Shown here: one piece after another, positions 31,633 to 47,499 of the stretch
Layout: every line of letters begins with the position of its first letter
Numbering within the stretch: the stretch's first letter is position 1
Assembly: GCF_047511655.1 (NCBI RefSeq)
Contig: NC_133390.1
Coordinates: 126,223,583 to 126,287,582 of the forward strand
Reading direction: 5' to 3'
DNA length: 64,000 nt
DNA from: Castor canadensis
Lineage: Eukaryota > Chordata > Mammalia > Rodentia > Castoridae
The notes under the pieces: model-generated
The model's input: only the letters and a program-made list of their open reading frames with translations
What the model was told of the DNA's origin: nothing
Database searches by the model: none
Program-made: the position numbers and the translations under genes

Positions 31633-31951
31633 CCACTCACTTTGAATTGACAATATTGAAAACGTTGACAATTTAAGTTTAGCTATGGAAACAAATAAAG
31701 CTTTTGTGTGCAGTTTAATTGATTTGGAATTGGTGATATGAAAGTTGTGCACATGAATTGCCTGTAATCACTGTAAATTCAGTTTAAGTTTTAAAGCTAT
31801 ATTCGTTTTGATGTTTTGAGTTCATTCTTATAGAAGAGAAATGTTATTGCATAAAGATACAGTCAAATTTTGTTTCTACGTATTAGTTAAGTATTAAAGT
31901 ATTGATTAGTTGATAAGCAAGTTGATAAAATTTCTTTTGGGATTTCCCTTT

Positions 31952-31991
31952 AGACGAGATCAGGCGTATTCAGGGTGGTATGGCCGTAGAT
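31952..31991 (-). pseudogene. 5S rRNA 5' fragment (40 nt), tailless retrocopy 1
   Basis: The minus strand reads TCTACGGCCATACCACCCTG and continues to CTGATCTCGTCT, matching nucleotides 1-40 of vertebrate 5S rRNA with changes mostly at CpG sites. The direct repeat GGATTTCCCTTTA flanks it at 31940-31952 and 31993-32005. There is no A-tail and no further 5S sequence. In element sense the insertion point reads TTT/AAAG, which fits L1-type cleavage. Confidence 0.9.
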
Positions 31992-32005
31992 AGGATTTCC
32001 CTTTA

Positions 32006-33240
32006 AATTTTTATTATGCTTTACAGGCATACTAGCTTCAAGTAGGTGTTTTTCTCCCCAGTATGGTATTGTTTCCTTAGTGATATGTAGCGGTCTTTCC
32101 AACTTACAAAAGACTTTGAATGAATTTTTAACTTAAAATATTGGCAGATTCTCTTTTTTTCCCCATATATAGAAAAGTGTTGTAGCACATAATCATAGAT
32201 ATTCACACCTGTGTGTATACTAATATTGAAGGTAAAAGTGTATTATTGTATGTACCATTAAAGAAATTAAATTGAATATAATAATCCATAATTAATTTTT
32301 AAAGTTCCAGTAATGCATTCCTTAAATAATTGTTTGTTACTGGACAGATTTGTTTTAAGAGCATAAGGTGAACTTGACAAAGTGAAGTTGGAGAAAAGGA
32401 TCATGGCTGGAAACTCACTTATTTAAGTAAATGCATCATGTGTAATCCACAGCAAAAATAATGGAGTACAGAATTATTAGAAAACAGCACTCTTGCAATC
32501 TTTGAAATATTAAATGTCTTAAATGCTTATATAAACAAGAACAAAGATATATTCTACAAATGCTTTTTATTATAGGTGAAAAGGCATTTCAATCTTTAAA
32601 ACTTTTTAATGTGGAAATGTAATATACTGAAAAGTATAAATGTACATTAATACAGTAAAATGAAGGCCCATGGGACTGTTAGCTATATATAACAAGATCA
32701 TTGCCACCACCTCAGAGGCCCTGGTATATGCTTTTCATCTCCCAACTTTTAATAATTACATCTTTGCTTTTTCTAATAAGTGATGGAACTTTGTGTATTG
32801 CTAAATAATATAGTAATAAAATTCAGTGTGACTTTTGCTCTTTTTCTGCATTTTTCAATTTCATCAATCAGAAGGTTGTCAAGAGTATGAGGGTAATAAG
32901 GTTCAGCAGCAATTTGACTAGCTTGACTTTATCCCCCTGAGGTGATTTGCCTGCTCTTTTCTAGTAGGGAGTGCCTATAAGAAAGGAATGAGGAAGGATT
33001 TCTTTGCATGTGAGATCAGAAATTATCTCAAAGCTGAACTCTTGAAACGGAGTCAACCTTGTTTCTGCATAACCTTGAGAACTATTTTTAAGGTAGTATC
33101 TGGCCAGAGAGATTCAGTCTTTCGCTAGACACTGAGAATATAAGGGAATACAGGGTTGGGGGAGATGATCTCATATTCTTTCAAGAGGCACATGATAATC
33201 AGATGAATGCAAAATTACTGGTTTAAGAACTGGTTTTTAA
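32006..33240. other. Intronic unique sequence
   Basis: AT-rich. Weak L2-like text near 33110-33200 is too diverged to call. Confidence 0.5.
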
Positions 33241-33466
33241 ACTGGGTGCTGTGGTTCACGCCTGTAATTGTTTGTACTCAGGATGCAGAAATCAGGAGGA
33301 TTGCAGTTCAAAGCCACCCTGAGGCAAATAGATCAGAGACCCTATCTTGAAAAAAATCCCTCACAAGAGAAGGGCTGGTGGAGTGGCTTAAGCCCTAAGA
33401 GCACCTGCCTACCAAAGTATGAGGCCCCAAGTTGAAACCCCAGTGTTGTCAAAAAAAAAAAAAAAA
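33241..33466 (+). repeat. Composite B1-ID SINE
   Basis: 'actgggtgctgtggttcacgcctgtaatt...aagggctggtggagtggctta' with a 17-base A-tail. Confidence 0.9.
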
Positions 33467-33485
33467 CATGAAAAACCTGACTTTT

Positions 33486-33612
33486 AGCTGGGCATGGTAG
33501 GGCATGTCTGTGGTCTTAGCTAATTAGGAGGCTGAGGTGAGAGGATCACTTGAGCACCACAAATTATGGTGGCAGCATGGTGGCCTCCCCCAATCTCAAT
33601 AAAAAATCAAAA
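33486..33612 (+). repeat. B1-like SINE monomer
   Basis: 'agctgggcatggtagggcatgtctgtggtcttagct...ggctgaggtgagaggatcacttgagc' and an A-rich end. Confidence 0.8.
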
Positions 33613-34655
33613 CCAAAAGCTATGGCTTTTGTCAACTTTTGCTCCTTTTGGAGTATGTACATATATTAAAATTAACGTAAGGGAAGTAGTTGGTTGGTAA
33701 TTCTTAAAAGGGTACCAGAAGGGCATCTGAGCTGAAGGAGTTTAGGAAAACCTCAAGAACAGACGATCTTATGTATTGGTATTTTCATAAATAATTGTCA
33801 GTCTTAGGTTGTTTATGTGTGTATGTTTTTTTTTTTGTTTGTGTAGATACGGAATCTTGAATAGCTTCTTGCATTTTTTTCTTACTGTTTTCCATGTTGC
33901 TTGCTTCTAGTCTTTAATGGGTATTGATTTTATTTTTTGCTATTTTTAAATTTTCCTTATTGACTTATTGGTTTAATAGGAAAAGGTATGATATTAGGAA
34001 AGTTTCTTCAAAAACTGTTCTCAGAAGATAAAAAGTTTAATTCAAAGAATGGTAAAGAAGAAGTCATGGATCTTTATGTATGAACTTGAAATCTCTTGGT
34101 GTATGAGCATTTGATGTTAATTTGCTAGCATGTTTTAGGAGATTAGTCTAGCTTATAAGGTTTTCTTTTAATTAGAAGCAATTCTTTAGTGAAACATAAG
34201 AAATCTCTCATGCATTTCTACTTAATCATTAGAATGATTTTGATCATATTTGATGGTATTTTTCTGTTGTGCGTTACTACAGAACCCATTCTACTTGAGT
34301 GAATAACAGTTTGCTTTGTGAACAAATAATGGGCTATCATCATAGTTAATTCATTGTCAAAGAAAAATTTAATCTGGGACTGTCTTTCTTCAAATTCTCA
34401 ATTTAGCCGTCCAGATTTATACAGAAATCAAACTTAAAAATTTAAACCAAATATAAGAAAGACGTACTTAGACATCACCATAAAACCCCATGTAGTACAT
34501 GCCATAAAGTAATATAAATGTCTTGGCTTGGACTCTATTTGGATAATTGTCGAACTTAATGATTTAAGTTGTTTTAACACCCTTAGTGTTTCTCTAAGTG
34601 TATGCATTCTCCAAATGAAGATACTTTCCTGAACTGCATTACCTGTTAAGAAACA
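33613..34655. other. Intronic unique sequence
   Basis: AT-rich. Nothing recognised. Confidence 0.5.
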
Positions 34656-34657
34656 AA

Positions 34658-34768
34658 GCCAGGTATGCTGTATTTCTAGCCCTTTGGGAAGATGAGGCAG
34701 GAGGATCTTGAGTTCAAGGCTAGTTTGAGCTACATAGCAAGATCCCATCTCAAAAAGCAGCAAAAGAA
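34658..34768 (+). repeat. B1-like SINE monomer
   Basis: 'agccaggtatgctgtatttctagccctttgggaagatgaggcaggagg...gagctacatagcaagatcccatctcaaaaa'. Confidence 0.85.
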
Positions 34769-36480
34769 ACGTGCCAGGCATACTTCTTTTATAAACCAAT
34801 ATTAAGTTTATCTGCCTTTTTGAGAGGTTAATAGTTAAAAATTTACTAATCCCAGTGTAAAACAATCTTACTTTAGTTAAATTTGGTTAGGACTGTTCAT
34901 TTGAATAAATAGTCTAGAACTGTTTTAAAGATTTTTAACACTTGTGAAGTAAAAATACTCAAAGAGACTAAGTTATTTGTTCTTTGCTTAAATTGCTAAG
35001 ATACTGTTTAGGTTATTTGACTTTTTCATGCTCATTTTCCTCTTTAACAACAACTTACTAGTATAGTAGACAAAGAGATCCTTTAAATCAAGAACATCAT
35101 TTCTAACTCTCCTGTAATATTTTACACAGCATTAGGAACACAGTTCTCAATGAATACTAAGACAGACCTTTTGTCCTTAATAACCCATATTTTCTGTTTT
35201 GGTGATAGTAGTAATAGTAGAACAACTCAAATCTCAGATTTGACTGCAATATCAGTAGAATTGTATGTGCAGTGACCATTGTAAACCTACTTTCAAAAGA
35301 TGTTTTAATCTTACAGAGAGTCATTGAAGAAAGATAATCATGCTTATAGAAGAAATGCTTTAAAACATAGAGTCAGACAAGAAAGATTAGTTAATTTCCA
35401 AAAATAATCTGAATTATAAAAGTTCTTTTGTTAATTTTTGAGGTGATAAATGGAAAAAGATGTAAGCAATAAAAGTAGATTTTCTAAGCTACCACTTTAG
35501 GAACAGTAAGAATTGAAATTATCTTTGTGTACATTAACATTACTTAGACTGTACTAAATTCATGCAAATGATGAATTTGGGTGGGGCTGCATTAATGATC
35601 CATTTAATTTCATAGTTCTTGATTTAACTCTATAATTGTAGGTAATTAATATGCAAATGCAGTAACACTTTAGGAATCCATCATAGCTTTGACTGATCTC
35701 ATTTAAACTTTACCATAAGAGGTTAAAGGATACTAAATGAAAATGCTCATTAGGAATGAAATAAGTTGCTGCTCTCCAGTAAAGTGTCTCTGCAATGGAA
35801 ATAGCTTTGTCTGTGTCTAATTACTTGGGAGAAGGATTATTGAATATAGTAGATCTTTAGTGTTAAATAAACCAACATAGGAAGTCTTTATCCTTTACTA
35901 TTATTGAATCTTTGCAAAATGGACATTCCATGTAATAATAGAAATAATCCTTTGAGTCTTAAAACTAACATGCTGAAATGATCTCACAAGATGTTTTTAC
36001 TTAACAATAGTATCTTCCTTGAAAAATAAAAACCTAAATCTTTATCCATCAGTATTGCTTTTTAAAAAATATATTACAGTGAGCATGATTTGTTGAATAT
36101 ATTGGCACTTAGGAAATTATATTGTTAATTTTTAAAACCTAATAAACTTGCTCCAAGGAAGTTTCATTTCGATCCCCAAATTATTTTTAGTGTAGACTAT
36201 AGCTAAAGCTAAAAAAGGCTTTTTAAAAATTTTAATGTTATGCAGCTTTCTTGTATTTGAAAGAGGTACAGAACAATGAAATTATGTGAGGTACATGAAC
36301 TAATCTAAAAATAAATAAAAGTGTAAAGATCAGTGACTTTTAACATTTATACATTTGCTAGTTGATGAACATTTGGATTTCTAATTTTTTTGCTATTACA
36401 AACAATGCTGTTGGGAACATTTAAACTCTTTTCTGATGCATGTATGTTCGTGTTTGCTAGGATATTTATCTGGTGCTGAA
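34769..36480. other. Intronic unique sequence
   Basis: AT-rich. No recognised repeats. Confidence 0.5.
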
Positions 36481-36489
36481 ATTTTATTG

Positions 36490-36915
36490 GAGCATGTTTC
36501 AGTTACATGTAAAGATACATACTATCTCAAAACTTAGTGACCAAATAGCACATTATTATCTCACAGTTCTGGGGGTTAAGTGGAAAGTTATTCTACTCAT
36601 ATTCATATGTCAGCTAGACACTCAATAGGCTCTAGTCAGTTGGGACTGAGTTATCTGGAATTTTGACTGGAACTTCACACTCTTTCTTATAGTCACTTAG
36701 GCTGCCTCACAGCATGGCTGCTGGGCTCCAAGAGAGTATTTTACCAGGGGTGGAGGGGGAAGCTCCCTGGCCAACTAAGGGTTGGGCTTGGAGATGACAG
36801 CCATATTTTACTATTCAGAATAGACCCAGGCCTATCTCAGTGTCAAAAGAGGTACATATACAGGTAGGGACAGAATCGTTTAGGGCTGTCTTTGGAAATT
36901 CTACCACAATGTGTT
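36490..36915 (-). repeat. Ancient interspersed repeat, probably MLT1-like
   Basis: The + strand shows 'aaaacttagtgaccaaatagcacattattatctcacagttctgggggt', which resembles the reversed 3' end of old MaLR LTRs. The remainder is degenerate, so a DNA transposon cannot be excluded. Confidence 0.35.
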
Positions 36916-36962
36916 TATCATTTTAATCTCCTCCTGTGAGTATCTGTTCATGTCTTTGGCTA

Positions 36963-37088
36963 GTTTTTTTGTTTTTGAGATAAGGTCTTGCTAACTAATA
37001 GCTCAGACTGGCCTCAAACTCTTTAAGTCTTATTGCCTCAGCCTCTCAAGTGCTGCGGTTTCAGGCATTTGTCACCATGCCCAACTCT
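36963..37088 (-). repeat. B1-like SINE monomer
   Basis: 'tttttgagataaggtcttgctaac...cagactggcctcaaactc...gcctcagcctctcaagtgctgcggtttcaggcatttgtcacc'. Confidence 0.85.
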
Positions 37089-37194
37089 GGCTGTTTTTTA
37101 ATTGGGATGTTTTGTCTTTTTCTTAATGATACAGTAGGAGGTTTTATCTTACATTTGTAAGTATAAATGTATCATATATAAATTGTATCCATTT

Positions 37195-37645
37195 TTCTTT
37201 TTTGGTACTGGGATTTAAACTTGGCCTTGCACTTCCCAGGCAAGCACTGGGGTTAGAACTGAGGGCTGCATGCTTGCAAAGCAGGCACTTTCTTCCTTGA
37301 GCCATACCTGCAGTCCATTTTGCTCTGGTTATTTTGGAGATGAGACTGTCCCGAACTATTCTTCCAGGTTGGTCTGAACCTAGATCCTCCAGATCTCAGC
37401 CTCTCAAGTATCTAGGATTATAGGCATGAGTCACCGTCACCTGGCTTGTTTTTGTTATTTTTTGAATGGGGTCTTTTATGCCTAGGTAGGTCTGGACTCT
37501 GATCTTCTTATTTTAACTTCCTGTGTGGCTGGAATGACAGGCATGTTGAGATGGGGTCTGTCTAGGCAGACTTTTTATCTGGGCTGGCCTGGAACCACAA
37601 TCCTCATAGTCTCCAGAGTAGTTGGGATTACTGCACCTCACGAAT
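37195..37645 (-). repeat. Two or three reverse SINEs in series
   Basis: A partial ID unit, a composite ID-B1 (37248-37445) and a further B1-like unit (37446-37645), each with the reversed B1 hallmark 'ctaggattataggcatgagtcacc' or a close variant. Confidence 0.8.
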
Positions 37646-37982
37646 CTATATCTGTATCTATCTATATCTGTAAATATTTTATTTCAGTTTGTGACTTACT
37701 GATCCTTAACAGCAGTCCTATAATCCTATAATATATTTTTATTTCTTCCATTTTTAGATGGACTTCTTAGTATATTAACAGAAAACAGTCTTGAAGTCAG
37801 CCTCCAAAGGTGATATTTTGTTATATAGGATAGTATTTGCAAGGGTGTACAATTATGAATCAGCATGTTTTTCTTTCAGTCTACCTATTATATCTCTTCT
37901 CCTCCAAAAGATTGAGACCTGAAAATTTTATGAGTTATTTTTTATTTATGGTTAAAAAAGAAAAAATGACTTTTTGTTATGA

Positions 37983-38045
37983 AAGACTGAGGTTGATGAC
38001 TTGCCCAGCATAATAGAGCTACAACCAGTATGTTCAGCCCCAAGT
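37983..38045 (+). repeat. MIR fragment (tentative)
   Basis: 'ctgaggttgatgacttgcccagcataatagagctacaacc' resembles the MIR 3' core. Confidence 0.45.
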
Positions 38046-38763
38046 TTTTCCCTAGTCTTGCCTGCTTCCTCCATTGCTCATTTTTTTTCCTCTAAATTAT
38101 TCATTTGGACCAATTAGTAGCTCCTCAAACCTTTCATACTCTTTTGTTTTAGATAGATAGACTAATTGTTTTTAGTGCTCTCCATGAGGGAGTTCTCAGA
38201 AGAGAGTAGAAAAGTATTGACTGGTATTTGAGATTTTCTTTCCTACTTCCAAACTTTATCTTGGAAATGATTCTTCATTGTTGTGGCAAAAATAATTTTG
38301 CAAAATTGTATTGGAATCCAGAAATTCATAGTTAATATTCAGTGTTTGCCTTCTACACTTTAAAATGAACACTGTAGTCATGTCTCAAGTACAGCTGAGT
38401 TGCTTTAACACTGAAAATGCCACAGATCAATTCCAGATTCTAAAATGCATAACTTTGAATGAAATTAAAAAGTTTTCTCTCATGCCTGAACAAATGCAAG
38501 AAGATATAAATAAGTTTGTAGACACTTCTTCTTAACCCTCAAATTAAGATTTGTTCTGTTAATGCTTTCCAACTACTGCAATTCTATATGTTGAAGACCA
38601 CCTCAGTATAGCTCTCTAGTATAAAAGCAGTGCTTCAGGCAGCATGACTTATTTTCACATCACTTCAGATTTCTTGGATCTAAGATTCAGAGGCAGAAGT
38701 AGAAGTTGTAATAGTACTTCTCATTGGAAGGATTCTTTTGACATGGCATCTTAAGACTTAAGA

Positions 38764-38888
38764 GCCAGGTATGGTGGCACATGCACCACCCAGGACTCAG
38801 CACTCTGAAGGTAGACGCCAGATCATTGCAAGTTTCAGGCTATTCTGGTCTACCTAGTGAGAGCATGTCTCAAAAATCAAAGAAGGAA
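38764..38888 (+). repeat. B1-like SINE monomer, diverged
   Basis: 'agccaggtatggtggcacatgcacc...caagtttcaggctattctggtctacctagtgagagcatgtctcaaaaa'. Confidence 0.75.
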
Positions 38889-39185
38889 AAGACTGACCCA
38901 AGAATGTTTTCTACCAGTGATTCCAGCTATTGCATGACCAAAGCATTCATTCATTTTTGTTTCCTGCCCCAGATTCTTTAACTTACAGGGTCATAAAGAA
39001 TTAGTTAGCCTTAGTCAAGGAGTAAACTAAGTATAATGTGTTTTGCTGTCATGGACTTGACAAAGTAAGTTGTTAAGTAACTTGACAAGAAGTGTAAAGC
39101 CAGATTCTACCAGGTTAAACATACTATAGGCCATTTGTAAAACAAAGAAGGGAAAAAAATTAAGTCCCTTCAAAATTCAGTAAAT

Positions 39186-39268
39186 AGATACCAGAGGTGT
39201 AACTCACGGGTGGAGTGCTTGCTTTCAATCACTGGCACCAAAACAAACAGACAAAAGCAATAAATATA
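39186..39268 (+). repeat. ID-like SINE, decayed
   Basis: 'ccagaggtgtaactcacgggtggagtgcttgctttcaatc' then an A-rich tail. Confidence 0.6.
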
Positions 39269-39417
39269 TTTGTAATTCTCAAAATATACAGATTTTAAAA
39301 CAGAATATACCAGACATGCTGATCTCTGAAGAGTTTAATGCATTACTACTTTATGGAAATTAATAGTTACTTTAAAAATGTTAAGGATACTACAACTTTG
39401 TTATAGTTGAAATTTCC

Positions 39418-39604
39418 CTTTCTTTTTGGTGGTACTGAAGACTGAACTCAGGACCTTGTGCTTGCCTAGCAAGCCACTGGAGCCATGCTCTCAATCCTTT
39501 TGCTTTTATCAGGTTTGTCAGGTAGGATCTCATGCTTTGCCAAATCCTCTTTGATCTACTCTCAAGTAGCTAGGATTATATGCATGTACCACCATGTCTG
39601 GCTT
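39418..39604 (-). repeat. Composite B1-ID SINE
   Basis: 'ttggtggtactgaagactgaactcaggaccttgtgcttgcctagcaagc' and the B1-like half ending 'gtagctaggattatatgcatgtaccacc'. Confidence 0.85.
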
Positions 39605-40006
39605 AGTTCAGTATTTCTAGTCACCTCTCCTAGACACCTTTGAAAAGGGAGGAGAAAATTAATTTACTCCTTTTATTTCTTAATTCTAGTTTGCTGGTAT
39701 TTTCTTGTTTGAAAAAGGAGTGAAGTCTAGGGGATTTAAAGTGGGCAAGTTGGATAGCTTTAGTTTCTGTGGAATATGGGATAAACTTCATACCTGGAAG
39801 AGAACTTAGAAATTATCTGTTAGAATGCTTGTCAAAGTATACTCTGCAAACTACATATCCTAGAACTTGTAGTTCAAAATAAAGTAACTTGATAATTTAA
39901 ACACGGAAAAATCTGCTTGCCACATCCTTTCATATTGATCTATAATACACGTTAGCACGTTATAGGCTAAGTTAAATCAGTAAACTTTAATTTGCTGTAT
40001 TTAATT

Positions 40007-40383
40007 TAGGAATCACTACGTTACTTCTTTAAAAAATTGGCATTAGTGCCACTATAATAAAATATCCGAGATTGGGTGATTTATCAGAACAGATTTATTT
40101 CTTACAGTTCTAGAGACTGGGAAATCCAAGGTTGAGGGAACCATATCTGGTGAAGGTCTTCTTGCTGCATTATCCCATGGTGGAAGGTGGAAGTGCAAAA
40201 GAGCATGCATGTAGCATTAAGAATGCATTTGTGTGGGTGCTGAACTCAGTTTTGTAACTCCTGATAATGACTTTACTCCCTTCATGAGAGCAGAGCTTTG
40301 ATGACCACACACCAGTTAACACTGATGCATTGAAGATTAAATATCTAACATGAATATTGGGAGACACATTTAAACCATGACAG
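40007..40383 (-). mobile_element. MLT1/MST-type MaLR LTR
   Basis: Read in reverse it starts TGTCATGGTTTAAATGTGTC and ends in a 'taaatctgttctgataaatcacccaatctcgg' block. Both termini fit MaLR LTRs of about 375 bp. Confidence 0.75.
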
Positions 40384-40427
40384 TGTCCCATGCAATTCAG
40401 TTGAAGAACAACTGATCTAGCTACTTT

Positions 40428-40508
40428 GTATAGAGATGATCCTGAGGTTTAGTGATGCTAGGTGACTTTCTCAAATTCATAGAGCTACAAACCAGAACTT
40501 AGCTTTTC
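40428..40508 (+). repeat. MIR fragment (tentative)
   Basis: 'ctgaggtttagtgatgctaggtgactttctcaaattcatagagct' fits the MIR 3' core. Confidence 0.5.
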
Positions 40509-40590
40509 AATTTTTAAATATTTTTTATCTTTATTCTTTTGTTTGAATTACTGCGTTATGAACATAAAATATATCCATATTGTAATAAGA

Positions 40591-40815
40591 ACTTTTTTTT
40601 TTTTTTTGGCCTGGTACTGGGGTTCAAACTATGTTTCATGTTTACAAGGCAGGCATTCTGCCACTTGAGCCACTCTGCCAGTTTTTTTTTGGGTTTTTTT
40701 CAAAATAGGGTCTCGCAAACTGTTTCTCTGGGCTGGCATTGAACTGCAGTCCTCCTGATCTCTGCCTAACCAAGTAGCTAGGATTATAGGTATGAGCCAC
40801 AAGAACCTGGCAGAA
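40591..40815 (-). repeat. Composite B1-ID SINE
   Basis: T-run, 'ggtactggggttcaaac', 'gccacttgagccactctgcca', then 'aaaatagggtctcgcaaactg...gtagctaggattataggtatgagccac'. Confidence 0.92.
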
Positions 40816-40819
40816 GCAT

Positions 40820-41635
40820 AGTTCTTTTTTTCAAATGAATATCTGTTCATTTATGACGTTGCTCCTTATTTGTCTTGGTGACTGAATGTTACAACACTTC
40901 AGTATTTAGTAATTTTTCAGCTTATGAATATGCCTTTCCTTCAGTCTTAAAAACTAAAGATGCCCAGAGAAGGCCTATATACATTGCTTGATTTGAGTGA
41001 CTACTTTATTTTAGTTTATCCCTTGTGGTTGCTTTCCTCTCCTGAGAGTATTCCCTGCAGAATATTGTTCAGTTTGCTTTTGAGCTCATTAGTTGACCAA
41101 ACCACTTTGATTCTTTTATCATAGCAAATTATAAGTCATGGAATATTATCATGCTTGTTAGTTGTAAATCTTATTTCTATAGTGTATCAATATTCTTATT
41201 TATGTGTAATATATATGTACTAATATGTGTATCTAATGATTATTATTTGGAAATCCTACTTATATAGTATAATATGTAATTATGTCTAGTAAGATAAATA
41301 TCTAATAAATATAAGTACAACATATGCATATATATATTTGTTGGTGATTTTTCCCTGTAATATATGAATATGTATTATTACATATTTATAATATTAAGTA
41401 TATGATGTGTTTAATAATATATTATTTGGTGGATGTAATACAGAAAAAATACCATGTGCTTGTCCTTTTTGACTAAGCTTTTTAGGATTTAATCTACATT
41501 GAACTTAGCTGTCCAAAAAATATCTTTGGATTGTTTGATCAAATATGATAATTTAGATGTAATCTTAGTTTTTTAAAAATATTTTTGAGTGATATTAATA
41601 TAGTATATTATCCTTATATGTTTTGAACTTCTAAG
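40820..41635. other. AT-rich intronic sequence
   Basis: Very AT-rich, with ATATAT-type low-complexity stretches at about 41200-41430. No gene seen. Confidence 0.6.
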
Positions 41636-41639
41636 TTTT

Positions 41640-43115
41640 TTATTACAAAATTTTTTATTAGAATATATTCATTATACAGGGGAGATTCATAGTGAAAATT
41701 GTAATTAGGGTTATATTGTACATTGGTTAGATTGCCCCCATCATCTCTCCCCTTCATCTCCCTCCCCTCCCCACTTAAAGCAATTGCAAGAGGTTTCTTT
41801 GTTCTATTTCATATAAATATATGAAGTCCATCAACCATATACTCTTACCTTAATCTCCTTCATTCGCCCTCCCCCTTCTCACGAGTACCCTCCCTCCACA
41901 CTCACTGTATCTGTTTTACAGTCCTGTCTTTCATTGTTAATATTTAAGTTGATGTTCAAAGGGGTTTCTCAACGTATACCTGCTGTGAGTATACCTTACT
42001 TTGGTCTGTTCATCCTCATCCATTACTCTCCCTTACCCCTTTACCTCCCACACCCCATTTTTTCAAGTACATGTCCTTATATCTTCTGCCTTCACAGATG
42101 TTATGTTTTATGATATTGCTGGTGCTCTATCAGTCTTTTTTCCTTTCCCTCTCCCGAGTTCTATAAAGTTATTCCACTATTACAAACATATTCTACATAT
42201 GCATTTGTATATGTCATACTTGTTTTTGTGTATGTGTTTATCTTTTGGATCTGTCTTCCACATATGAAAGAAAACATGCGGCCTTTGTCTTTCTGAGCCG
42301 GCTTACTTCACTTAACATGATGTCCTCCATTTGCATCCATTTACTTTCAAACCACATGTCATTATTCCTGACAGCTGAGTAAAACTCCATTGTGTACATA
42401 CACCATATTTTCTTGATCCATTCATCGGTTGTAGGGCATCTGGGTTGTTTCCATAGCTTGGCTATTGTGAATAGTGCTGCGATGAACATTGGTGTATAGG
42501 TGTTTCTGTTGTATCCTGAATTTCATTCCTTTGGGTCGATGCCCAGGAGCAGTATACTAGATTATATGGCAGTTCTATCTTTAGCTTTTTGAGGAATTTC
42601 CATACCGCTTTCCATAGTGGTTATACTAGTTTGCATTCTCATCAACAGTGTATAAGGGTTCCTGTTTCGCCACATCCTCACCAGCATTTGTTGTTATTGC
42701 TCTTTAATATGGCCATTCTAACTGAGGTGAGATGAAATCTAAGTGTAGTTTCGATTTGCATCTCTTTTGTAGCCAGGGAAGTTGAACACTTCTTCATGAA
42801 TTTATTGGTCATTTGTACCTGTTCCTTTGAGAATTCCATGTTTAATTCATGTGCCCATTTCTTCATTGGGATATTGATTCTTTGGAGGGTTGAGTTTTTT
42901 GAGTTCCCTGTAGATTCTGGAAATTAGTCTCTTATTGGATGAATAGCTGATAAAGATTTTCTCCCATTGTGGGCAATCTTTTGAGTCTAGTGCCTATTTC
43001 TTTTGCTGTGCAGAAGCTCTTTAGTTTGATGCAGTCCCACTTGTTCATTCTTTTTCTTAGATGCTGAGCCTTTTGAGTTCTACCTAGGAAATTGTTTTTT
43101 TTCAGGTATCATTAG
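41640..43115 (-). mobile_element. Older L1 3' fragment
   Basis: 3'UTR lies at 41640-42235 with C-rich tracts on the + strand. The end of ORF2 lies at 42240-43115. The 42238-42489 minus frame holds the block beginning FIAALFTIAKLWKQP, and 42678-42866 holds the [26 protein letters not shown] block. The frame is broken by several indels. Its 3'UTR differs from that of the young copies, so it is an older subfamily. Confidence 0.92.
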
Positions 43116-43860
43116 TAATTCTTTGCTGTTCTCATTTAAACACCGATGTGAAATCTGTGTATTCATACTAGTTTGAACATAATCTCAAATAAATTTCATT
43201 TTTTGAGTTATAAAACTGGCTGTGAGTTTAATGTGATTACTTAGACAATGTTCATGTGTATCGCTTGGTGACAATGGATTTAGATTATTTTAGTAGTCAT
43301 AGTAATGTAGGTTTTCCCCCTTTCTGTGTACTTAATGTAGCTGATCAGTTTGGCTTGTTTTTGTTTTTGATCTGTCATTAATAAAAGGTAGAATGAAATG
43401 CCAACTTCAGCCAGTGGTGGCCTTAGCCGTGTTTTACTTTACCTTGGTTGTTCTGTAGTCCCATTAATACTGAATTTTATATATGAAGTCTCTCAACCAA
43501 TGGAACTTAGCTAGTAACAAGATAAGGAAAGGAATAGAATTCTTTAATTCTTGAGGTACTCATTAGCCTTCTAGCACTTTGTTTTTTACTCTTTCATTTT
43601 TATTTACCTTTTTGTTGAATTTACTTCTTACCTTTTATAATTTCCTTTATTTCCTGATTCATTTATGCTTGTAAGGGCATCCATAATTGGTCATTGTTAG
43701 AACTAGTTTTCTTTTTTACTATGTTGAATGCATGCTAACCTGGGCAATTTTAATAATTACATGAATAAAATCTTGAGTTACACTTCACAAATAAGTAGAG
43801 AGTTTATGTGAATTTAAAAAAAAAAAGTTTTTTTTCAAGAGAGCCTGATTGTTGATAGCC
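43116..43860. other. Intronic unique sequence
   Basis: Nothing recognised. Confidence 0.5.
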
Positions 43861-43864
43861 TTGG

Positions 43865-44262
43865 ATGAATAGAGTGAGGACAGAGGTTAGGGTAGTGATA
43901 TTATATAAATAATGACTGTCTTGCAAGAAGGTTTGCACCAGAAACTCTCCTTGCTGGTATTATAAAATAAGCAGCCATATTAGCAAGGATATACAGGCAG
44001 CTTTTCTAATGTTTCAGCTAAAAGTCAACAAGAGATTAGGACTTCCTCTTCTGTTGCCTCAAGGAAATCAGTTCTTCCTGTAACCCAAATGAGCTTGGAT
44101 TCTGAGAACTCTACCCTGGCGATACCTTGTAAGACCCTAAGCAGAGGGTCTAGCTAAACTGTGCCTAGATTTGACCCTTGAAACCATGAGATAACAAAGG
44201 AATATTGTTTTAAACCTTACGTTTGTGATAATTTGTTAGCAGCAACAGAAAACTAATGTAAA
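43865..44262 (+). mobile_element. MLT1-like MaLR LTR
   Basis: The 3' half reads 'gaccctaagcagagggtctagctaaactgtgcctag...gagataacaaaggaatattgttttaaacc...gtttgtgataatttgttagcagcaacagaaaactaatgta', a clear MLT1-class 3' end. Confidence 0.75.
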
Positions 44263-44309
44263 TATTCTTTATATAAACCTTTTTTCCATCTTTGAATATT
44301 ACTGCCAAA

Positions 44310-44385
44310 CTTCTTTTTATCCTAGGTGATCAAAAAATATTTATTGAATATCTCTATGTGGCAGGCAGATACAGGGTGTGAACTC
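44310..44385 (+). repeat. L2-like fragment
   Basis: 'caaaaaatatttattgaatatctctatgtggcaggca' resembles the L2 3' block. Confidence 0.45.
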
Positions 44386-44572
44386 AAAGAGACATGATGT
44401 TAATTGAATGGTGAAGACACTTGAAACCAGAGTGATAACGCTGTAAAGGCCTATGATATGATAAACAGATTTAATTGAATACATATCTTTTCAGGATTTA
44501 TTCAACTTTTTAAAACTAAAGCCTTTTGTGATAGTTAACTTCGGTTGTCAACTTGACTAGATTGAAGAATAC

Positions 44573-45335
44573 CTTGAAAATTGGTACTGAGAAGTGGGGT
44601 CATTGTTGTGACTGACTATATCTGATAATATGGTTCAGAAGCCTACGAAACTGGTTCATGGGAGCAGTTTGGCAAAGTTTGGAGGAGTGGGCCATAGAAA
44701 GCTTAGAAAAATTAATTACAAGCAGAAGGTTAATGAGCAATGTTGGTGGGTACTCAGAAGACCAAAGTACTGATAAAAATGTAGACCATAAAGGCCAGGC
44801 TGATAAAGTTTCATATGGAAATGAGATTGGAAATTGAACTGAAGGCTATAATTGTTACACCCAGAAAAAGAATTTGGATATACTTTGTCCCTGCCCTGAT
44901 ACTTGGTGGGAAGCTGCATTTAAACATGTTGAACTAGTTTATCTAACAGAGGAAATTTCAAGGCAGCACAGAATTCAGGCTGTGACATTGGGTATTACTG
45001 GTTGCTTTAAGCCAGATTTACAGGGAGAATCAGGAGCACAAAGGAGCAGAGTGGAAATATTTGGAAAATTTGCATTTTGGTCAGAAAAGAAGCACCAGTA
45101 AGGGTAAAGGTGCAGTTGAGGAGGGTACAGTCACTAAGGAGATTAACACTATTAAACAGAAGCCAGCTTTGCATAGGGGCAGTAGGAACATAGCCAAGCT
45201 TGCCTTAAATTTTGAAGACTTTGGACTTGGACTTTTGCATAGTTATGGAACAATAGACTTTGGGTTCTTAAGGAAGGACTTGATTGCATTTTATATTGTG
45301 AGATGGACTTCAGCCTCTGGGGGCCAGGGACAGAA
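44573..45335 (+). mobile_element. ERVL-MaLR internal sequence, 3' part
   Basis: Old non-autonomous endogenous-retrovirus internal region. It begins 'aaaattggtactgagaagtggggt', carries 'gaggaaatttcaaggcagca' and 'tttggaaaatttgcattttggtcagaaaagaa', and ends in the 'gactttgggttc...gggggccagggacagaa' block that precedes MaLR 3' LTRs. Such internal regions have no retroviral protein-coding capacity. The open frames at 44874-45354 are chance. Confidence 0.8.
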
Positions 45336-45722
45336 TGCTATAGTTGGAATCTAAAGTGTCCCTTAAAGGCCCAGTCCCTACCTTGGTGCTATTGGGAGGT
45401 AATGGAAATTTTAAGAGATGTAGTTTAGTGGGAGGTCTTCTAGTCATGGGGGCATATCCTTGAAGAGGATAGTAGGACCTTGCCCCTTTCTTTTTCTCTC
45501 CTTTGTTTCCCTGCCATAACGTGAACAGATTTGCCATGTCACGAACAGATTTGCCATGCCACATGCTCTCCCTCCATGATGTGCTGCTCTCCAACCAGTG
45601 TCGTAAAAGCAATAGATCCCACCAGCCATGGGCCAAAACCTCTGGAACTGTGAGTTCCTCGTTTTTATAAGTTGATTATCTCAGGTGTTTTGTTACAGTA
45701 AAGGAAAGCTCACTGACACACT
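45336..45722 (+). mobile_element. ERVL-MaLR 3' LTR
   Basis: It starts TGCTATAGTTGG and ends GACACA, 387 bases. Typical blocks are 'ggtgctattgggaggtaatgg', 'gtgggaggtcttctagtcatgggggcat' and 'ttgattatctcaggtgttttgttacag'. It is the same type as the reverse LTR at 11545-11921. No matching 5' LTR was found next to the internal part. Confidence 0.85.
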
Positions 45723-47428
45723 TTCTTACATTTTTAAAGCATATTCCTGCTCTCACAAAACCTGGGTTCTAGCTTTATTTTTAATTAGCATTATGAAAAT
45801 GATCTCTGTATATTTAACTCTTGTAATCCTCTTCTTTCTAGAACATTTTTACTCTTTCTTGCTCAGTTCACTCAGTTCAGGTTTAAGTTAAATGTTAATC
45901 TTACATGAGTCCCTTAGATGGTAAGCTTTATGAGGGCATACTCAGAACTCAGTGTAAACAAACAAAACCTGACATGGAGGAATCAGCATTGGAAGTCCTG
46001 TACATTGCTGACAATAGTATAAATGGTAACTATTTTGGAAAACTTAATCTTTTTTAAATACATGTCTACTGTATAACCTAGGAGTAGAATTGAAAGTTTT
46101 ACCCCCCACCCCACAAATGAAAACATATATCCTTAATTCTTGTAAATGCTCATTCATATTTTATAAGAATGTACAGTCTCTTAGTTATTGCCTCAACTAA
46201 ATACAACCCCAGACCCAATAGGAGCATAGATTATAGTAGACATGAAGGGGAATATATAACTTAAGTGAAAGAGGCCAAATTGACATATATAAAAAAGTAG
46301 AATTATCCCATTTATATGAAAAAAACCCCAAAAAACTGGGAACACACAAAATGAATATATGGGGAAAGAAGTCAAAGTCTTTGAGAAGAGAAGTGACTGG
46401 AAAGGTCTATGTTAGAGTTTTCTGAGATAATAGTTTTGGGTAATAGTTAAGGATGATGTTATGCCTATAGTTGTCAGAGATTGGTGTTTTTTACTGTGTA
46501 TAAATTATACTTTAGATTTTTTAAATGAGAAAAGAAATGTGAGTGAATTAGGTGTCCTTAGTGTCTTGTGCACTCTCTTCTTTGCTTGATTATATTTGCT
46601 GTTGTCTTTTTCTGCTGTAGGATTGTCAGTTATCTCTAGATATCTAGAGGTAGCTCTAGAGTTGGGCAGGGGCCAAGTTTTCCTTTGGTTCTCAGTTTCA
46701 ATTTTGAGTACTTACATTCAAAATGCCCAGGCTTATTTGTTCTGAGGTAAAAAAGATATCTGATAACTGTAATTCATTCATAGGTTGATAGCCATATTTT
46801 ATGATTACATTTTCAAGAGAAATATTTGAATTCTTACAGAACCTTATTTAGTGTTTTTATGTAGCTTCTTGCCTTTTCTGTCCTAGGATTCATAAAAGAC
46901 ATCTGTTTAAGTGTTGATAGAGTAATTCTGCTCCAACTATAATTTTGAGATAACATGGTGCTATATTTGTAAACCAATGTAAAAAGCAGATTAAAAAGAT
47001 AGGTTTTTAAATTTTGTTTAAGCAAATGAAAACTAAATATTAATTCTGTTCTTCTGAATCTCTTCCTTTCACCTTTCCTTCATTTTTTGCAGTAAAATAG
47101 AAACCAGATTGTTTCATCTTTTTGATACAAAAAGCCCTTTAATACCAAAGCAGTTTGAAAAAAAAATACATATATACACACACATATGTTTAACTTTTAT
47201 ATATAGCATTTTGTAGTGCTGTATCTTGTTTTGTGTACGTGTGTGTGTGTTTAATGGAAATAATACTAATTTCTAGTGGGATGGCTATGTCAGAAAATTG
47301 TGAAATAAGTATAGCTTGGAGTTCCCAAAACTGCCCCAGCAATTTTTTTTGGAGGTGGGGTGGGGGAGGCAGGTATTGTCTCTGAAACTACTCAAGAAAG
47401 CAGCTCAGGTTTTTCAGTGCTAACACAT
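45723..47428. other. Intronic unique sequence
   Basis: AT-rich with small low-complexity patches: (TA/CA)n at 47168-47190 and (GT)n at 47236-47252. Confidence 0.5.
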
Positions 47429-47442
47429 CTCATTTGTTCTTC

Positions 47443-47482
47443 AGACAAGATCAGGCGCATTCAGGGTGGTATGGCTATAGAC
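47443..47482 (-). pseudogene. 5S rRNA 5' fragment (40 nt), tailless retrocopy 2
   Basis: The minus strand reads GTCTATAGCCATACCACCCT and runs on to CTGATCTTGTCT, again nucleotides 1-40 of 5S rRNA and no more. The 15-bp direct repeat CTCATTTGTTCTTCA is present at 47429-47443 and 47482-47496, sharing one base with each end. No A-tail. Changes from 5S lie mostly at CpG sites, suggesting age. Confidence 0.92.
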
Positions 47483-47499
47483 TCATTTGTTCTTCAAGT

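Follow-up and report, generated by a model that had tools for sequence, protein, structure and literature searches.

Truncated 5S rRNA copies in Castor canadensis as probable products of LINE-1 priming inside 5S RNA

In the genome of Castor canadensis, a stretch of 64,000 nucleotides (assembly GCF_047511655.1, contig NC_133390.1, positions 126,223,583 to 126,287,582 of the forward strand; hereafter, the window) carries two short pieces of 5S ribosomal RNA (rRNA) sequence, each set between perfect target-site duplications. While describing both copies, this article places them within a sample of 5S-derived loci from the same genome and argues that they are probably tailless retropseudogenes, left by LINE-1 (L1) target-primed reverse transcription that began inside 5S RNA.

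The 5S copies of the window

Copy 1 comprises nucleotides (nt) 2–39 of 5S rRNA at positions 31953–31990, antisense on the forward strand, with 35 of 38 bases as in 5S. Its target-site duplication, the 13 bp GGATTTCCCTTTA, lies at the 5S 3' end (31940–31952) and, in a perfect repeat, at the 5S 5' end (31993–32005), where it is preceded on the minus strand by ATT (a TT/TAAA site); two extra bases, TA, occupy 31991–31992, where G1 would be expected. Copy 2, likewise nt 2–39 and antisense on the forward strand, spans 47444–47481 with 33 of 38 bases as in 5S, and its perfect 15 bp duplication, CTCATTTGTTCTTCA, occupies 47429–47443 at the 5S 3' end and 47482–47496 at the 5' end; position 47482 could also be G1. 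All of these features are assigned to the minus strand, on which copy 1 reads …ATCC, TA, 5S nt 2–39 and then TAAAGGGAAATCC, and copy 2 reads …ATGAG, 5S nt 2–39 and then TGAAGAACAAATGAG. In both, the 5S sequence adjoins the duplication directly, with no oligo(A) tail, and the putative nick sites are TT/TAAA for copy 1 and CT/TGAA for copy 2. An A-tailed processed pseudogene is ruled out for these copies, which are neither full length nor tailed.

Each copy keeps 38 of the 121 nt of 5S. The original prediction, made from the letters of the window, had located two 5S insertions here, both of which are confirmed, and had given them exact common ends at nt 1 and nt 40. At the 5' side both copies do reach nt 2, but copy 1 is without G1 and nt 1 of copy 2 is ambiguous with the duplication. 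At the 3' side, nt 39 is in both the last position that can be assigned to 5S with certainty; the T of nt 40 also opens either duplication on the minus strand, and copy 2 continues through nt 42, its duplication beginning with the TGA of 5S nt 40–42. The junction overlap is 3 nt in copy 2; in copy 1 it is 1 nt when counted strictly and 3 nt when one G·T pair is allowed.

Copy 1 departs from 5S at three bases (nt 24, 25 and 30) and copy 2 at five (nt 6, 7, 24, 30 and 36), and because all eight of these differences fall in CpG dinucleotides, the copies need no common variant source. A search of the window with the core CATACCACCCTGAA at up to 2 mismatches found only the two copies, both exact; 0.49 matches would be expected, and at least two occurred in 7 of 100 shuffles. 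With perfect duplications abutting these core matches, chance is no serious option. Even with 3 mismatches allowed, the 5S segment nt 65–86 has no match in the window, and an Rfam scan of the window returned no 5S family, at the gathering threshold or at E values up to 10, probably because the copies are too short for the model.

Copies of the same kind across the genome

Loci were drawn from the window's own genome (2.81 Gb, 181 contigs) with two 5S patterns, nt 2–23, which has 3487 matches genome-wide at up to 2 mismatches, and nt 10–35, which has 2419. From each pattern, the 100 places at the head of the listing were taken; these span contigs C1–C9 and C1–C3, respectively, and form a non-random sample, in which the first pattern, all 100 of its places being exact matches, selects young copies. 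Loci identical over 80 nt were merged (among them L135, L172, L179 and L180, identical to L003), which reduced the fetched loci to 169 distinct ones, in addition to the two window copies, which are themselves counted within the totals; L098–L102 were counted as one locus. Removal of 15 loci of one dispersed 5S-carrying repeat, recognized by a flank match, left 156 loci, removal of L151 (the same repeat) and L103 (a flank duplicate) left 154, and removal of L036, a suspected member of the repeat, finally left 153. L165, possibly also of that repeat, was kept and has no duplication at score 10. Duplications were called at a score of at least 10, and the control was a shifted left anchor.

At this threshold, a duplication was found at 121 of the 156 loci as against 4 of 468 shifted controls, and in the final set at 119 of 153 distinct 5S-head loci. 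With gaps allowed, the 119 divide into 81 copies that end in loop C, which we take to extend over nt 33–44, 35 that end in loop D, one full-length copy with an A-tail (L024, the only one of its type among 154 loci) and two unclear loci, L084 and L112, the second of which is loop-C-like by eye; within the 81, the call for L141 depends on a low-complexity repeat. Without gaps, the duplication starts at nt 38–43 in 78 and at nt 85–90 in 32 of 121 loci, or in 77 and 32 of the 119. The 5S identity itself ends sharply at nt 42 in 49 of the 119 and at nt 90 in 27. At the opposite side, 102 of the 119 begin within 2 nt of nt 1, and at least three extra A's ahead of the duplication were seen only in L024 and L141. 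Because 81 of the 119 duplication-bearing loci end in loop C, the end common to both window copies is ordinary in this genome, and two random copies would both be expected to end there at a frequency of 0.68 squared, or 0.46. Genome-wide, the full-length 5S sequence has about 2014 matches at up to 3 mismatches, and subtraction of these from the 3487 matches of nt 2–23 would leave some 1,470 dispersed 5S heads.

Two rearrangements recur in the sample, a 10-nt deletion between the GATCTC repeats of 5S (L004, L024, L132 and L173) and a doubling of CGTCT (L020, L028 and L194). Both are perhaps the work of reverse transcriptase slippage; the slipped copies gave no discrimination between an intact RNA and a pre-cut fragment as template.

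Target sequences at the junction

The junctions of 81 loop-C and 36 loop-D copies were compared with 5S (117 in all; the final classing has 35 loop-D copies). A strict overlap of at least one base is present in 71 of the 81 and in 35 of the 36, and across the sampled copies the overlap is mostly 3–5 nt. The target consensus is T-G/A-A for loop C and (G)AGA for loop D. Targets starting with TGA make up 38 of 81 for loop C and 0 of 36 for loop D (Fisher 2e-8), while AGA stands at nt 88 in 29 of 36 loop-D targets and starts 6 of 81 loop-C targets (Fisher 3e-15). When G·T and U·G pairs are allowed, UGA pairing is possible in 56 of the 81 loop-C targets. In the same 81, the target column opposite G41 is G at 0.60, A at 0.32 and C at 0.00, and the column opposite A42 is A at 0.79. 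An A at column 41, as copy 1 has it, is compatible with G·T pairing; the L1 site prefers A as well.

Priming inside 5S RNA and alternative templates

The best explanation for the window copies is one that the original prediction had listed among its alternatives, namely preferential priming at an internal point of full 5S RNA. Behind the duplications, the near-complete 5' ends, the absence of tails, the two peaks and the target matching at the junction, all of which are observed directly, would stand an intact, folded 5S RNA as template and L1 as enzyme. The L1 endonuclease would nick a TY/TRAA-like site, and the freed 3' end (…TTCA or …TTTA) would pair with usually 3–5 bases of loop C in an ordinary 5S RNA, among them U40, G41 (in a Watson–Crick or G·T pair) and A42; reverse transcriptase, starting at nt 39, would copy the RNA as far as its 5' end, and the 13–15 bp duplication would result once a staggered second nick was repaired. 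L1 is reported to need no more than 4 matched bases at the primer's 3' end (PMC3649969). The nick-like sites and the abundance of L1 ORF1 are, at the level of sequence, consistent with an L1 origin: a first look for PF02994 gave 38733 candidates, 150 of which were scored, and the rows listed were all above the cut-off and had no internal stops.

The two sharp 3' ends would arise because A-rich L1 sites meet the sole A of loop C and the GAGA of loop D; A42 is the only A within nt 33–44, and GAGA occupies nt 87–90. A single rule accounts for both ends, namely pairing at a hairpin region that contains an A. The minimum free energy (MFE) fold of 5S has two hairpin loops, nt 37–40 and nt 87–90, and the truncation of the window copies (nt 39–40) falls in the first of them.

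Several observations weigh against priming inside 5S RNA. In the MFE fold, a 2-bp stem with nt 35–36 takes up G41 and A42, and the primer would therefore need to open this weak stem or use the larger and open loop C that we take the literature to describe. The region of nt 39–42 is counted as loop C in PMC13174262. After TGA, the T of U43 follows in only 5 of 38 loop-C targets and A in 31, and after AGA, the C of C91 follows in only 1 of 29 loop-D targets and A in 20; a match that ends at A42 and A90 fits the A-rich L1 endonuclease site and, equally, a template ending there. Strict overlap is missing from 10 of 81 loop-C and 1 of 36 loop-D copies, or from 6 and 0 when wobble is allowed. The control provided by target sites of A-tailed short interspersed elements (SINEs) was noisy (n=1, then 11 of 20 at a score of at least 10), and its 11 cases start with TGA once, with AGA never and with AAA twice. 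Finally, angiogenin-dependent cutting of 5S, mostly in the beta-domain, has been described for human cancer stem cells (PMC6962460).

That last observation also lends some plausibility to a 5S 5' fragment, cut beforehand in the manner of a tRNA half, as the template, a reading that we regard as unlikely but worth weighing in full. The fragment must end at A42, and a second one at A90, which is where 5S identity stops sharply and past which target matching is absent; moreover, for 5S/L1 chimeras whose 5S is cut at 46 and 90, targeted processing has been suggested (PMC13174262). However, two independent cuts are needed, each directly after the final A in a hairpin region. With A42 as a free end, canonical AAA sites should also be usable, yet AAA starts only 6 of 117 duplications, a weak argument given the two AAA starts among the 11 noisy SINE cases. 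A few copies, in addition, appear to end earlier than such a fragment would, the duplication beginning at nt 33–37 in 5 of 117, four of them with overlap, but in L016 and L190, where it starts early, the 5S match itself reaches nt 42. In human, truncated 5S RNA with such ends was sought in small-RNA cDNAs, and A-tailed truncated copies were sought as well, but neither was found (data not shown there), from which internal priming was concluded (PMC5322556). In human lymphoblastoid cells, the commonest 5S fragments reported come from the 3' end (103–121; PMC7153239), although those data cover short lengths only and may have missed a 42-nt species. Somewhat less likely again is the more specific proposal that a pair of separate 5S 5' fragments, one ending at A42 and the other at A90, is produced in germ cells and copied by L1 through end-pairing.

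The discrete RNA ending exactly at nt 40, as originally predicted, is very improbable. It would suit the window copies, whose 5S sequence is assured no further than nt 39 and whose duplications also contain the T of nt 40, and the test proposed for it, a cluster of tailless 3' ends around nt 40, proved positive in the genome sample (81 of 119 in loop C). However, loop-C targets favour matches to G41 and A42, beyond the proposed end, TGA starts none of the 36 loop-D targets, and a second sharp end lies in loop D (35 of 119). Since the target bases at the junction match G41 and A42 in a loop-specific fashion, the template carried nt 41–42, and one ending at nt 40 is rejected. Least credible of all is the remaining alternative of that prediction, that the copies are heads of a 5S-derived SINE family of the sort known from other animals: the copies have no tail, the duplication abuts the 5S piece, the 3' flanks of the 81 loop-C copies contain no common body past the duplication (similarity of any sort is confined to 7 pairs, and its offset varies), the 5S internal promoter, presumably downstream of nt 40, is missing from nt 2–39, and 97 loop-C copies divide into 67 CpG-site haplotypes, a diversity indicative of separate origins from ordinary 5S.

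If priming did begin inside 5S RNA, the copies record how little sequence L1 seems to need for a start, usually 3–5 bp in a single loop, where one wobble pair is apparently allowed. The two-loop pattern means that a cut fragment and internal priming can be told apart by tests on a single RNA that is small and well folded.

Other 5S-related sequences

The dispersed repeat that was removed from the sample carries a loop-D-ended 5S copy with duplication-like flanks, AGAAAGATCTTCAG and AGACAGATCTTCAG, and 17 sampled loci are alike over about 800 bp (L003, L015, L074, L109, L116, L124, L125, L128, in two blocks, L135, L142, L151, L152, L154–L157 and L178). Its junction motif has 275 matches genome-wide at up to 1 mismatch, and the host repeat seems to have multiplied a single tailless 5S copy; shortly downstream, a purine run may resemble that of a long terminal repeat element. 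On contig C10, at 85.97–86.19 Mb and from 87.38 Mb onward, 5S genes stand in arrays that repeat about every 2.3 kb and are oppositely oriented at the two places, as judged from 100 listed of the 2014 full-length matches at up to 3 mismatches. L098–L102 represent one 5S insertion five times within 3.5 Mb (C9, 58.9–62.4 Mb), and L103, at 64.0 Mb, is a sixth copy whose flanks are common to them, which suggests a segmental duplication. Within the window, ARAGORN calls a tRNA-Ala at 37239–37311, in surroundings that resemble a tRNA-derived SINE.

Comparison with known systems

Tailless retropseudogenes were reportedly treated by Schmitz et al. in 2004. The window copies belong to the kind published in 2015, which includes 5S and hot spots in loops, and of which 555 derive from 5S in human, 414 in guinea pig and 90 in mouse (Noll et al. 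2015, PMC5322556). They share with that kind a nearly complete 5' end, a 3' truncation in loops, duplications of 8–35 nt and the absence of an A-tail, and the figures by which it was defined there apply to both: a 3' truncation of at least 10 nt, a length of at least 30 nt and duplications within 8–35 nt. Of the match of 2–18 nt between target site and RNA at the junction that is given for that kind, copy 2 has 3 nt, and copy 1 has 1 nt strictly and 3 nt with one G·T pair.

Two other systems bear a partial likeness. The 5S/LINE-1 chimeric insertions contain 5S truncated at 46 and 90, positions assigned to loops C and D, but are fused to LINE-1 sequence, whereas the window copies stand alone between their duplications (PMC13174262). 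The 5S fragments made by angiogenin, comparable to tRNA halves, result from cuts mostly in the beta-domain, but it is the 3' fragment that is studied there, and a link to retroposition was not seen in the part consulted (PMC6962460). Neither the G41 wobble nor the cross-control between loop C and loop D was met in the text portions of PMC5322556 and PMC13174262, figures and supplements aside, and no novelty is claimed for them. Set against the tailless retropseudogenes of PMC5322556, the copies described here are identical in kind, and what the present analysis offers is a further genome, two dominant ends, an overlap of mostly 3–5 nt and an apparent tolerance of a G·T pair at G41.

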